DNA from: Thraustochytrium sp. TN22
Taxonomy: Eukaryota > Sar > Bigyra > Thraustochytrida > Thraustochytriidae
Assembly: GCA_013306675.1 (NCBI GenBank)
Contig: JABLUY010000038.1
Location: 1-64,000 of the forward strand
DNA length: 64,000 nt
Reading direction: 5' to 3'
The notes below the pieces were generated by a model. That model had not been told where the DNA came from and did not search any database. It saw only the letters and a program-made list of their open reading frames with translations. A program made the translations under genes and the position numbers. Below are positions 9,800 through 13,425 of this stretch, in pieces (the first letter of the stretch is position 1; each line of letters opens with the position of its first letter).

Positions 9800-9837
9800 C
9801 GAGACCAGGAAGAACGTAATGAGTTTCTGATTGATGA

Positions 9838-9972
9838 CTGACCTGCCTAACTGGCTGACCGGGTGCTGACCATCTGATTGATGACTGATCTAACTGGCTC
9901 ACTGACTGGGTGCTGACCATCTGATGGATGACTGACATGACTGGCTCATACTGACCGGGTGCTGACCATCTC
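9838..9972. repeat. ~50-bp tandem repeat, about 2.5-3 copies
   Basis: A unit containing GGGTGCTGACCATCTGAT, then GATGACTGA and ACTGGCTCA, recurs between the convergent dynamin and RNA-repair genes. Copies are imperfect. Confidence 0.8.
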
Positions 9973-10044
9973 GCTCGACCCCACGGCGCGCACCGTGCCG
10001 CGCCTTTGTCGGCGGCGAACTTTGCGCGCGCGTACGCACTAAAC

Positions 10045-13000
10045 CTACGCGGAAAGGAGTGCCTGGATCACACGAGCAGAGTCGGCCGCGACATCGCGCA
10101 CTGTCAGGATGCGCGCCGCGCGCTCGCTCGCCGCATCTGTCGGCGCCTCCAGCCTGCGCAAGAAGGAGTCAACGATGCGCCGCGCCGAGGCTGCATTCTG
10201 CGTCGTGATCGTCGGGTGCCCATCGCGGCGCAGAATACGGTCCACCAGCACGTCCGTACAAGGCGGCTCAAAGTACACGACGGCCACCTGCTTTGGGCTG
10301 GCCATGGCCAGGTCGATCCAATACCGGCGGTCGGCGCGCTCCACGTTGCAGCGGTCCAGCACAACCGTCGTGCGCTTGGCGCGCCGCCCGATGAGGTCCT
10401 CACAGGCGCGACGCGAGCCGAGATCGTCCTGCGAGACACGCTCGCACTCGGCAAGGCGCTCCAACTCCGCGGCCAGCGTCGACTTGCCGCTGGCAGGCGG
10501 GCCCACGAGCACCACGAGACGATACTTGCAGCGGCGTCGACGGGCCGGGGCCACCTCGCCGCCGCCCGCAGCCGCATCAGCTCCGGTGCCGTCTGGCAGA
10601 GCCGCTGCCGAGCCCATCGCCGCCTTGGCCTTGGCCTTGGCGTTTTCCAGCACCCTGCGCAGGTCCGCAGCCGCCTGGCGGGCATTCTCAAAGAGGATGA
10701 AGGTGCCCCCGGCGGCTTCCCACGGCCTGCGTGCGCGCTCCCGGTCGTCAATGAGCACGCGGCCAAGCCCGCTGTACAGGTGCTTGTCGCGACTCGCGCA
10801 GAACACCTTGGCTACGTTCGGCCCGAGGCGCCGTGCGCACCACGCCGCCTTCTGGCGCTCGGCCCAGCGCGACGTGGACATGGGCACGCCCGAGAGGATG
10901 GTGGGCTGCAGCGGCGCCAGGTCCTGCTCCCAGAGCGCCTGCGCGCCTGGCATCCACTCCAGCGTGCCGAAAAAGTCGCGGTCGCCCTGCACGGCCCGCC
11001 ACATGGCCGCCACCGCCATGCTACGCGGCGGCTGCCCGCAGATGCGCATCACGCCGGCGTCAAAGTCCGCCAGCACACCGTCTAGGTCCACGAAGACCTG
11101 GACGGGCTGGTCAGACACTGGCGCGCGCACCGGCCAGCTCGCGCCGTATTGGATGCTCGCCTTGGCGCACGTACGCTTCCAGTCCGCGCCCGTCTGGACG
11201 TGACCCTCGCGCACGTACTTGGCGATGCTGCGCTCAAAGCTCCGCGCGTCCGCCGCAAACGCCTGCGCAACGCGCACCACGAAGCCCTCGCCGGTCACGT
11301 CGCTCGCAACGCGACTCGGCAGCGCCGCCTCCGCCTCCAAGAGCACGCGCAGCTGCTCCTCGTTCGCTAGGAGGCCGTCAAAGACCACAGGCACCGTGCG
11401 TAGGCCCACCCGGTCCGCCAGCATCGCCACCTCGTCCCACACCAGCCACTCGCCGTCCATGCGCACGGCAAACAGGTAGAACGGGACAGTCAGCCTGTCG
11501 TACGCGATGCTGTGCACAGCCGTCATGCACTCGCCGTACAGCTCCGCATCCCGATACCTGCCCTCCTCGAAGACATCGGGAAACTGCGCGCGCAGCGAGC
11601 GGTAGAGCTCCTTCACTGGGCCAAACGACCAGTGCGTCGCCTCCCGCCCGTGCGTACGCGCGTAGACCAGCCCGTTTGGCGCAAGGCAGCAGTTTCCGCC
11701 GTCCAGCTTTTCCGTCACCACGACGCGCTTGCCGAAAAACGCCTCGCTCGACTGCAGCGTCACGTCGTCCGCGTGCACGCTCGGGCTGCACGGGAGGTGC
11801 GGCGTGCTTGGGTACTTTTTCACCACCGCCTCCGCGTCCACGGCGGCGGCGGCTGCCACGACTACGATGCCATTGCGCACCAGCGACGACCGCGTCCAGT
11901 GCACGTCGATGGCCTGTGAGAACTCGGCGCGCACGATCTTTGCTCGCTGCACGAGCAACGACGAGCGCTTTTCCGTCTGCGCAACCCACGCCTCGCTGCT
12001 TCGCACGACCAGACCCTCGACGGGGCCGTCGTAGAAGGCGGACTGCGTCTCGGCGAGAAGCACCTGGAGGTCCTCGACGAAGCGCGCTTCGCTCGCGAAG
12101 CCGGCGTGCGCGATGCGGCGCGGAGGCGTAAGCCCGGCGCGGCTCAGGACCTCGTCGCGCGCCTCCGCAGACAGAAATTGGCCCGCCAAGCGATCGTACA
12201 CATCAAAGGCCATGTAGAGGTCCGGCAGCCGCGAGTATGGGATGCTGTGCCGCGCGTACATCCACTCGCCGTAGACCGCATAGCGCTGCCCGAGCACGTC
12301 ACAGAGCTGAACGCGGCGCGTCTCCAGCCACAGATCCAAACCGCCCCACTGCGGCGCTGTCTCTGAGCACACCGTGTGGCCCCGGTTCGTACAGACCACC
12401 TGCCAGCTCTCATTGAAGTGCAGGCCGAGATTCGCGCCGTCCAGCTTCTCTTCGATCACTACGGACCGCTCCGCGTTCGCCACGAAAAGACTCCGATCTG
12501 CGACCGGGAGCAGGAGGTCGTCCCGCGTCGCGCTTCCGAGGTCTACCACGTGCCTCGTCCGTGGAAACTTGGCCGGTGGCGCCGCAGGGAGTCCCAGTGC
12601 CGCCGCACGCCGCAAGAGCGTCTCCCACATCGCGCGGCGGCGCGGCCACGCCGCCTCCAGGCCGTCCTCGTACGAGCGCAGAGCTGCCGGCTTTTCGCCC
12701 AGCGCCCGCATGGCGTCGCCAAGCACGAGCGCGGCGCGTGGGTTCTTGGCGTCCAATTCCAGCGCGGCCTGCGCGTCCGCAGCGGCCTCCGCGAAGCGCA
12801 TCTCGCGACCCAGGTGTAACGCGCGACCTACAAGCGCACGAGCCTGCAGTCCGCCTAGCGCCGCACTGCGCCGCGCTGTCTCGGCCACGGCGAAGTTGCA
12901 CACGTCCAGGCTCTCTTCAGCGTGATCGCGCAGCAAAATTTCCATTTCCTCGCGGGAAATCTCCATGGTCGGCGCGCTCAGCGTCATCAGCGTTGACACG

Positions 13001-13425
13001 CCCTTGCCCTTGCGATCATGAATGTCCCGGTCCGAGAACCCGAGTGTGATGTGCAGGTCGCGCGTTGCGAGCTTGAGCTGCTCGCGACGCGCACGTTGCG
13101 CAGTCGGCCAGCTGATTACCACATACCAGGCCTCGGCCTGACCGTCCACGATATGGCCCACGCCAAGGCTTGCGAAGAAGCTGCCACGCAGCGCCGAGCG
13201 TAGATTATCGACCACCTGGGCCGCCGACCGCCGCAGACCCTTGACTTCTTGCGGCGTCAGCAGCGTCACATGCCTGCGGTCGTCCTCGTCGCGCACTCGC
13301 CGCCGCTGCCGTGCACTTTCCGGTACGGCTGCTTCCCATCGCGAGGCCGCCTCCTCCACGCCGGGCCCCACGGCCGCCACGGTGCCGCGCCACAGCACGA
13401 TGTCCACGCCGCCCTGTTGCGGCAT
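10045..13425 (-). CDS. Multifunctional RNA-repair protein: 2H phosphoesterase, TPR, two ligase modules, HAD phosphatase, P-loop kinase
   Basis: A single 1126-residue protein carrying most steps of RNA end-healing and sealing. The frame opens at a TTG (13443); the first ATG is 13425 and residues are numbered from it. Region 1: paired HVT (52-54) and HIT (125-127), the two-histidine phosphoesterase signature. Region 2: helical TPR-like repeats about 190-260. Region 3: nucleotidyltransferase ligase core, KLDG at 327-330 (adenylated lysine), YGEW at 385-388, EGLVVR at 470-475, AKIVR at 495-499. Region 4: a second core, KLDG 573-576, YGEC 630-633, EGFVVR 713-718, AKYVR 735-739. Region 5: HAD-type phosphatase of the 5'(3')-nucleotidase kind, DLDGV 780-784 and DD at 893-894. 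Region 6: polynucleotide-kinase-like P-loop GPPASGKST 975-983, with DRCN at 1024-1027. Trl1-type tRNA ligases combine one ligase, a kinase and a cyclic phosphodiesterase. This protein resembles them in content but has a different order, a duplicated ligase and an added phosphatase. Domain calls come from motifs; substrates are inferred. Confidence 0.85.
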   Translation of the reverse strand: MPQQGGVDIVLWRGTVAAVGPGVEEAASRWEAAVPESARQRRRVRDEDDRRHVTLLTPQEVKGLRRSAAQVVDNLRSALRGSFFASLGVGHIVDGQAEAWYVVISWPTAQRARREQLKLATRDLHITLGFSDRDIHDRKGKGVSTLMTLSAPTMEISREEMEILLRDHAEESLDVCNFAVAETARRSAALGGLQARALVGRALHLGREMRFAEAAADAQAALELDAKNPRAALVLGDAMRALGEKPAALRSYEDGLEAAWPRRRAMWETLLRRAAALGLPAAPPAKFPRTRHVVDLGSATRDDLLLPVADRSLFVANAERSVVIEEKLDGANLGLHFNESWQVVCTNRGHTVCSETAPQWGGLDLWLETRRVQLCDVLGQRYAVYGEWMYARHSIPYSRLPDLYMAFDVYDRLAGQFLSAEARDEVLSRAGLTPPRRIAHAGFASEARFVEDLQVLLAETQSAFYDGPVEGLVVRSSEAWVAQTEKRSSLLVQRAKIVRAEFSQAIDVHWTRSSLVRNGIVVVAAAAAVDAEAVVKKYPSTPHLPCSPSVHADDVTLQSSEAFFGKRVVVTEKLDGGNCCLAPNGLVYARTHGREATHWSFGPVKELYRSLRAQFPDVFEEGRYRDAELYGECMTAVHSIAYDRLTVPFYLFAVRMDGEWLVWDEVAMLADRVGLRTVPVVFDGLLANEEQLRVLLEAEAALPSRVASDVTGEGFVVRVAQAFAADARSFERSIAKYVREGHVQTGADWKRTCAKASIQYGASWPVRAPVSDQPVQVFVDLDGVLADFDAGVMRICGQPPRSMAVAAMWRAVQGDRDFFGTLEWMPGAQALWEQDLAPLQPTILSGVPMSTSRWAERQKAAWCARRLGPNVAKVFCASRDKHLYSGLGRVLIDDRERARRPWEAAGGTFILFENARQAAADLRRVLENAKAKAKAAMGSAAALPDGTGADAAAGGGEVAPARRRRCKYRLVVLVGPPASGKSTLAAELERLAECERVSQDDLGSRRACEDLIGRRAKRTTVVLDRCNVERADRRYWIDLAMASPKQVAVVYFEPPCTDVLVDRILRRDGHPTITTQNAASARRIVDSFLRRLEAPTDAASERAARILTVRDVAADSARVIQALLSA

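Follow-up and report, generated by a model that had tools for sequence, protein, structure and literature searches.

We analysed a stretch of 64,000 nucleotides from Thraustochytrium sp. TN22, here called the window, which lies on contig C321 of a genome of 37.9 Mb in 453 contigs. On its minus strand, a single open frame of 1126 codons (10045..13425; ATG start at 13425, stop at 10045-10047) encodes a putative RNA-repair protein with two ligase modules. The first-pass annotation, made from the letters alone, had named such a frame together with a paired HxT signature, two sets of ligase motifs, a DLDGV site of the HAD type and a GPPASGKST kinase P-loop, and all of these are indeed present. The HxT motifs are HVT at residues 52-54 and HIT at residues 125-127. 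Ligase module A exhibits EEKLDGAN (325-332), YGEW (385-388), EGLVVR (470-475) and KIVR (496-499), and module B exhibits EKLDGGN (572-578), YGEC (630-633), EGFVVR (713-718) and KYVR (736-739). DLDGV is found at residues 780-784 and the P-loop at residues 975-983. The presence of these motifs in one frame of 1126 residues is far beyond chance. The codon usage of the frame, compared with that of its dynamin-like and DDX41-like neighbours (presumed names, read from their translations), gives a cosine of 0.93, and two overlapping shadow open reading frames (ORFs) give 0.46 and 0.77. At third codon positions, the six domains have a GC content of 0.78-0.89, and a short linker has one of 0.72. Based on these two properties, the segments from the 2H domain to the kinase look like one coding unit.

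From the N to the C terminus, the order of the modules is 2H, TPR-like, ligase A, ligase B, HAD and kinase. When the whole protein was scanned with hmmscan, PF09414 was matched in two stretches (4.8e-50), followed by 2H-SAK (1.1e-15) and AAA_33 (5.6e-10), with NT5C under its cut-off; separate pieces were also scanned alone and judged by Pfam's curated cut-offs. The 2H domain, both ligases, the HAD domain and the kinase each exceeded the Pfam cut-off, either alone or in a search of the genome, in agreement with the enzymatic modules of the first-pass annotation, which had mentioned neither the TPR stretch nor the related repair genes that the genome carries at other places. Among PHROG profiles, the protein matches 'RNA ligase' (1.8e-49) and '5'-3' deoxyribonucleotidase' (1.9e-25).

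The 2H-SAK phosphoesterase domain comprises residues 23-136 (13018..13359; all features of the protein are on the minus strand) and scores 63.1 bits with PF22547, the cut-off being 27, which places it among the Swiss Army Knife 2H domains. Its two HxT motifs, as expected of 2H phosphoesterases, are encoded at 13261-13272 and 13042-13053. The TPR-like stretch (residues 201-261; 12643..12825) matches TPR_16 at E=0.00068, below the Pfam cut-off, as are all TPR matches of the isolated piece, and consensus-TPR chains of the PDB at E=5e-4. The nucleotidyltransferase domain of module A comprises residues 285-525 (11851..12573) with K327 as the presumed nucleophile, and that of module B residues 528-765 (11131..11844) with K573 in this role. 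In the genome search with PF09414, the two stretches scored 87 and 85.9 bits (cut-off 27), and ligase motifs I, III, IV and V are present. A profile of both ligase families, compared with the PDB, matched PAB1020 (3.5e-06) and, in the same range (to 4.8e-4), a Naegleria RNA ligase, an ATP-dependent RNA ligase and T4 Rnl2, as well as, weakly, a tRNA ligase (0.055).

The HAD phosphatase domain (residues 773-925; 10651..11109) exhibits DLDGV, S845, K881 and LIDDRE and is matched by phrog_2643 (1.9e-25) and NT5C (27.0 bits, cut-off 24.8); the roles that we assume for D780, S845 and K881 come from general knowledge of HAD enzymes. With regard to the HAD_SAK type, NT5C was the only family listed for this region at E<=10, a threshold at which HMMER filters drop most weak matches, and PF10307 (HAD_SAK_1) had no match in the genome, the control genomes being equally silent. 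The domain is also not of the PNK3P type of PNKP and T4 Pnkp; it is NT5C-like, and PNK3P is found instead on another contig, C177. The P-loop kinase domain (residues 968-1107; 10105..10524) scores 51.2 bits with AAA_33 (cut-off 27), and its nearest PDB chains are 9d8a, named 'Rhizopus azygosporus Kinase' (E=3.2e-18), and 9drz (2.5e-16). We infer that it is a 5'-OH polynucleotide kinase.

Aligned over 208 residues, the two ligase modules are about 32% identical (50 bits), and each is closer to sequences from elsewhere. Three bacterial ligases encoded on plasmids are 36-38% identical to module A (124-137 bits), its relatives in the tree reach up to 42%, and one phage ligase is 28% identical to it (85 bits). 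For module B, the identity is 36-40% with ligases from viruses, phages, Embleya and Deinococcus (100-145 bits). For the phylogeny, 168 ligase ORFs, 96 nearer A and 72 nearer B, were thinned at 75% identity, and a quick tree was built from the remaining 124 and the two modules. Module B lies within a clade of 50 rows and module A among the other 76, both with a Shimodaira-Hasegawa-like approximate likelihood ratio test (SH-aLRT) value of 100. Hidden Markov models (HMMs) of the two families were built from 75 relatives of A and 49 of B, leaving out the sequence of the window. Module A scored 215.4 bits with the family-A HMM and 80.0 with the family-B HMM, whereas module B scored 211.5 bits with the family-B (DRB0100-like) HMM and 74.7 with the other, so that each satisfies its own profile; the margins of the relatives in favour of their own family are at least 137.9 (A) and 172.3 bits (B). 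In an approximately unbiased (AU) test, a joint clade of A and B was rejected at p=0.042, which is just significant, and the log-likelihood was 69 lower when the two were held together.

Module A retains 45 of the 50 columns that are at least 90% conserved in its 75 relatives, the losses being at residues 336, 346, 352, 404 and 441, and module B retains 34 of 36 such columns in its 49 relatives, with losses at residues 591 and 748. Among the columns kept are the lysines of KxDG and of motif V together with the GE and EG pairs, and because nearly all conserved columns are kept, both modules are probably catalytic. The best reading of these comparisons is that A and B are two different ligases joined in one chain, or the products of a very old split. 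The duplicated ligase of the first-pass annotation is thus not borne out as a recent event: although both modules are PF09414 and adjacent, and the AU result is weak, with long branches in play, a recent internal duplication with one copy decaying is highly improbable in view of the HMM scores, the identities, the lower likelihood of a joint clade and the columns kept in both modules.

With regard to the relatives of module A, three plasmid loci (Tistrella, Azotobacter and Aeromonas) comprise an ATPase gene, a small gene and then a family-A ligase; in the case of Azotobacter and Tistrella, the two genes before the ligase match HEC-03B and HEC-03A of PADLOC. We searched for these neighbours in the fetched flanks by BLAST with the Azotobacter proteins (E<=1e-10), at the best 80 of at least 475 confirmed genome loci and at the best 80 of 134 confirmed viral-contig loci, neither of which is a random sample. 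A HEC-03B relative is present in 68 of the 80 family-A genome loci (L105-L184) and a HEC-03A relative in 58; in 52, the genes follow one another strictly as 03B-03A-ligase on the same strand. The 12 genome loci lacking HEC-03B include three with fewer than 500 bases upstream and six with HEC-03A. As the bacterial loci cannot be compared directly with the viral ones, the fair control is the comparison among viral contigs, where the cassette is found at 3/12 family-A loci and at 0/69 family-B loci; it is also absent at three further family-B loci (two plasmid, one phage). The ligases of this family resemble module A in sequence but differ in being stand-alone genes of about 230 codons in the plasmids examined, beside the ATPase and HEC-03A, and BLAST found no end-healing domain in the same frame. 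The PADLOC scan of the window protein itself returned 0 families, and the L018 ligase, the one such ligase scanned, had no match in the PADLOC library.

The family-A ligase is thus observed as the third gene beside the candidate defence pair HEC-03B/HEC-03A (L018, L019, L024 and most of L105-L184). Other neighbours include a PglZ protein in six loci (L176:5860-7926), an Eco57I-type methylase in six loci (L138:2-3055) and a DEAD helicase in five loci (L116:3462-5825), a company that resembles that of defence islands. These come from single smaller clusters of neighbouring genes, the only ones used, since 316 ORFs fell together into a single component.

The relatives of module B have a different setting. 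In D. radiodurans (L020), a family-B ligase is followed by a microbial PARG gene and an HD-kinase gene, an order that corresponds to the layout of DRB0100-0099-0098 in PMC11833690, and the KxDG lysine of this ligase is residue 40, as given for DRB0100 in PMC1997131. Module B is 38% identical to the L020 ligase, and the operon follows the same logic of kinase, phosphatase and ligase; it differs in being composed of separate genes and in exhibiting an HD-type phosphatase domain and PARG rather than HAD and 2H. Among the 68 family-B loci in the viral set, the fetched flanks contain an Rnl1-like ORF in six, a HAD-like ORF in six and a kinase-like ORF in eight, the last seen with a profile only. 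All three occur together at one locus alone, a phage contig (L060:2155-7474) on which Rnl1, HAD, a family-B ligase, an AAA_33 kinase and a second, NT5C-like HAD follow one another within about 5.3 kb. The first HAD of this cluster is 37.6% identical to that of the window protein. The cluster therefore resembles our protein in its HAD, family-B ligase and kinase, but its genes are separate, a family-A ligase was not found there, and no ORF of the contig matched the 2H domain of the window at E<=1.

Two further observations concern long frames with a family-B ligase. On a viral contig, the ligase lies in a stop-to-stop frame of 2837 residues (L061:1188-9698), perhaps a phage polyvalent protein, and in an Embleya plasmid frame (L021:3674-5770) it is followed by a P-loop stretch, GRSGSGKST. 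A pure phage origin of the whole protein was considered and rejected: the HAD domain and both ligases were matched by tblastn in phage records, and the kinase and 2H domains were not.

Both PF09414 matches of the genome are in the 1126-codon frame, as is the sole 2H-SAK match returned. Other repair genes are nevertheless present. A protein of 921 residues on contig C277 (L013:1967-4732) comprises a HAD domain, a T4-Rnl1-like ligase of PF09511 and a kinase. It exhibits the same kind of HAD (38-39% identity) and a P-loop kinase, but differs from the window protein in its single T4-Rnl1-like ligase, the lack of a 2H match and the HAD domain in first position; its N-terminal 125 residues or so carry no domain assignment. 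A frame of 905 residues on C177 (L014:2045-4762), with a PNK3P phosphatase, a kinase, a HIT domain and a C2HE zinc finger, is by its domains a PNKP-aprataxin fusion. The HAD of the window also weakly matches (1.6e-4) a separate HAD-like frame of 159 residues on C255 (L015:1683-2162), and contig C113 has a weaker match to residues 925-1028 of the protein, with one stop inside. Two close Tpt1 (PF01885) matches lie at C124:44099-45398 (minus strand), about 8-10 kb from the frame of a polyunsaturated fatty acid (PUFA) synthase, and tRNA-intron endonuclease matches are found on C270 and C422 (5.8e-14, with one stop inside, and 1e-4). RtcB had no match in the six-frame search of the genome, in which nine of the 14 control genomes, which are prokaryotes, did match. 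The searches for the cyclic phosphodiesterase (CPD) and kinase families of Trl1 returned no match, with all controls equally silent. The PUFA synthase, a hallmark of thraustochytrids among eukaryotes, is of the PfaA type; its 3044-codon frame scores, with in-frame neighbours, 2539.7 bits (cut-off 1010.1), and the same model matched 11 of the 14 control genomes, none over the cut-off, which makes a thraustochytrid host most likely from the sequence as well. As a side observation within the window, imperfect repeats of the CTGACTGG/GTGCTGACCATCTGAT type occupy positions 9825-9975, between the convergent dynamin-like and ligase genes.

The first-pass annotation knew of no described protein with this order of domains. 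The Pfam names 2H-SAK and HAD_SAK_1 indicate, however, that multi-domain RNA-repair proteins of a 'Swiss Army Knife' kind are already recognised; the families reportedly go back to a survey by Burroughs and Aravind in 2016. The best reading is therefore that of a new architecture inside a recognised kind. Swiss Army Knife proteins (PF22547, PF10307) combine 2H, HAD, ligase and kinase domains, as does our protein, whose 2H-SAK domain is over the cut-off; the differences are the HAD region, which matches NT5C and not HAD_SAK, and the two ligases of two families. Trl1-type tRNA ligases, which comprise a PF09511 ligase, a PF08303 kinase and a PF08302 CPD in that order, likewise carry a ligase, a kinase and a phosphodiesterase of the 2H fold on a single polypeptide. 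The window protein has another ligase family, another order, an additional HAD and a second ligase, and membership of the Trl1 type was rejected, as none of these three families is over its cut-off on the protein (PF08303, E=0.011). In our comparison of 168 loci (L017-L184; bacterial genomes, plasmids, phages and viral contigs, with L017 and L025 covering the same contig stretch), none of the 168 ligase ORFs contains a second ligase module. No BLAST match to the HAD, kinase, 2H or TPR of the window was found in the same ORF as a ligase, although BLAST misses distant domains, as with the P-loop of the Embleya frame. This comparison covers bacterial and viral loci, and co-linear homologues may exist in other eukaryotes. 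Among the papers listed by a literature search on tandem ligases, no title or abstract opening concerns a two-ligase protein, and a search pairing 'thraustochytri' with 'RNA ligase' found no paper.

Based on domain identity, conserved active-site motifs and the two ligase families, we propose, with a probability of roughly 0.72, that the protein is a one-chain 'heal-and-seal' RNA-repair enzyme, which is best read as put together from bacterial and phage conflict modules. Of the single-polypeptide enzyme described in the first-pass annotation, the domain identities are supported by profiles, and a recent duplication of the ligase is not. Breaks made by metal-independent RNases end in a 2',3'-cyclic phosphate on one side and a 5'-OH on the other. 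The cyclic phosphate would be opened by the 2H domain, and the HAD domain would take off the remaining 2'/3' phosphate, or, once the ends are sealed, separate Tpt1 enzymes would clear a 2'-phosphate. The kinase at the C terminus would phosphorylate the 5'-OH with a nucleoside triphosphate, and one of the two ligases would adenylate the 5'-phosphate and join it to the 3'-OH. Through its TPR stretch, the protein may be docked to a partner. Each of these reactions is an inference, as are the sequence in which they follow, the substrate and the way in which the ligases would share the work. All parts of this pathway except Tpt1, which is matched elsewhere in the genome, are on this chain. The conversion of a 2',3'-cyclic phosphate to a 2'-phosphate by 2H enzymes, followed by a phosphatase or KptA/Tpt1, a kinase and a ligase, is described in PMC7824862 and PMC9503650. 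The setting of the relatives is consistent with this role, as family B occurs with PARG and HD-kinase in Deinococcus and with Rnl1, HAD and kinase on the phage contig, family A occurs near the HEC-03 pair, and the HAD-Rnl1-kinase chain on C277 uses the same kinds of part. The two ligases probably serve different breaks, in terms of RNA, end or duplex context. Our preferred guess for their coexistence is by analogy one of different substrates, because phages with several ligases, XacN1 among them, are read in this way in PMC7824862.

Several points weigh against this proposal. The curated family of the HAD domain is NT5C, a nucleotidase and not an RNA-end phosphatase. The ligase profile also reached some chains in the PDB that carry the name DNA ligase, both modules are on long end branches (1.85 and 1.77), and none of the papers listed by a literature search deals with 9d8a and 9drz, the closest chains of the kinase. 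Moreover, DRB0100 adenylates itself, and DNA or RNA ligation was not found, according to PMC1997131.

The explanation that survives best beside this proposal is that of a counter-defence or stress repair protein, obtained from phages or bacteria, that mends tRNAs or rRNA that competitors or viruses have cut with their ribotoxins. It is compatible with heal-and-seal repair rather than opposed to it. The relatives of the modules beside candidate defence genes and in phages, and the joining of two separate bacterial or phage families in one protist gene, point in this direction. However, the ligase trees cover bacterial and viral sequences and no other eukaryote, and do not give the direction or time of transfer, and the long branches suggest an old acquisition, so that we hold this explanation tentatively, at somewhat less than even odds.

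A role as the splicing ligase of the organism for pre-tRNA, and perhaps for the mRNA of the unfolded protein response, in place of Trl1 and RtcB, is doubtful. TSEN would cut, the protein would heal and seal, and Tpt1 would remove the 2'-phosphate. The missing RtcB match, the two Tpt1 and two tRNA-intron endonuclease matches and the location of the only returned 2H-SAK match on this protein are in favour of such a role. Nevertheless, the C277 protein is at least an equal candidate, with a ligase of PF09511, which we take to be the ligase family of Trl1, and the silence of the Trl1 searches is shared by the controls, while an intron-split gene could escape them. The broadest form of the proposal, in which the protein carries the whole pathway from break to joint with two ligases of different ancestry and substrate, one from the HEC-03 cassette and one from the phage/Deinococcus cassette, and has become a main joiner of (t)RNA in a protist lineage without RtcB, appears unlikely.

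It is improbable that the protein acts outside RNA repair, on DNA ends or as an RNA- or protein-adenylylating enzyme that caps rather than ligates. NT5C-like HADs generally act on nucleotides, some of the matched chains are named DNA ligases, and DRB0100, the self-adenylating relative of module B that ligated nothing in vitro, was proposed for DNA repair in PMC1997131. In contrast, both modules match the RNA-ligase profile, the separate PNKP-aprataxin fusion of the genome suits DNA ends, and PMC9503650 gives cyclic phosphates of RNA as the substrates of 2H phosphoesterases. Heal-and-seal repair of RNA thus remains our preferred reading.

For the candidate defence system HEC-03, the conserved RNA ligase as third gene provides a hypothesis based on RNA that can be tested. 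If active, the thraustochytrid protein could be a one-pot tool enzyme for RNAs with 2',3'-cyclic phosphate and 5'-OH ends, and would offer a compact system in which to ask why two ATP-dependent RNA ligases share one chain. It would also allow a test of whether protists of the thraustochytrid type join tRNA halves with enzymes of bacterial or phage origin.

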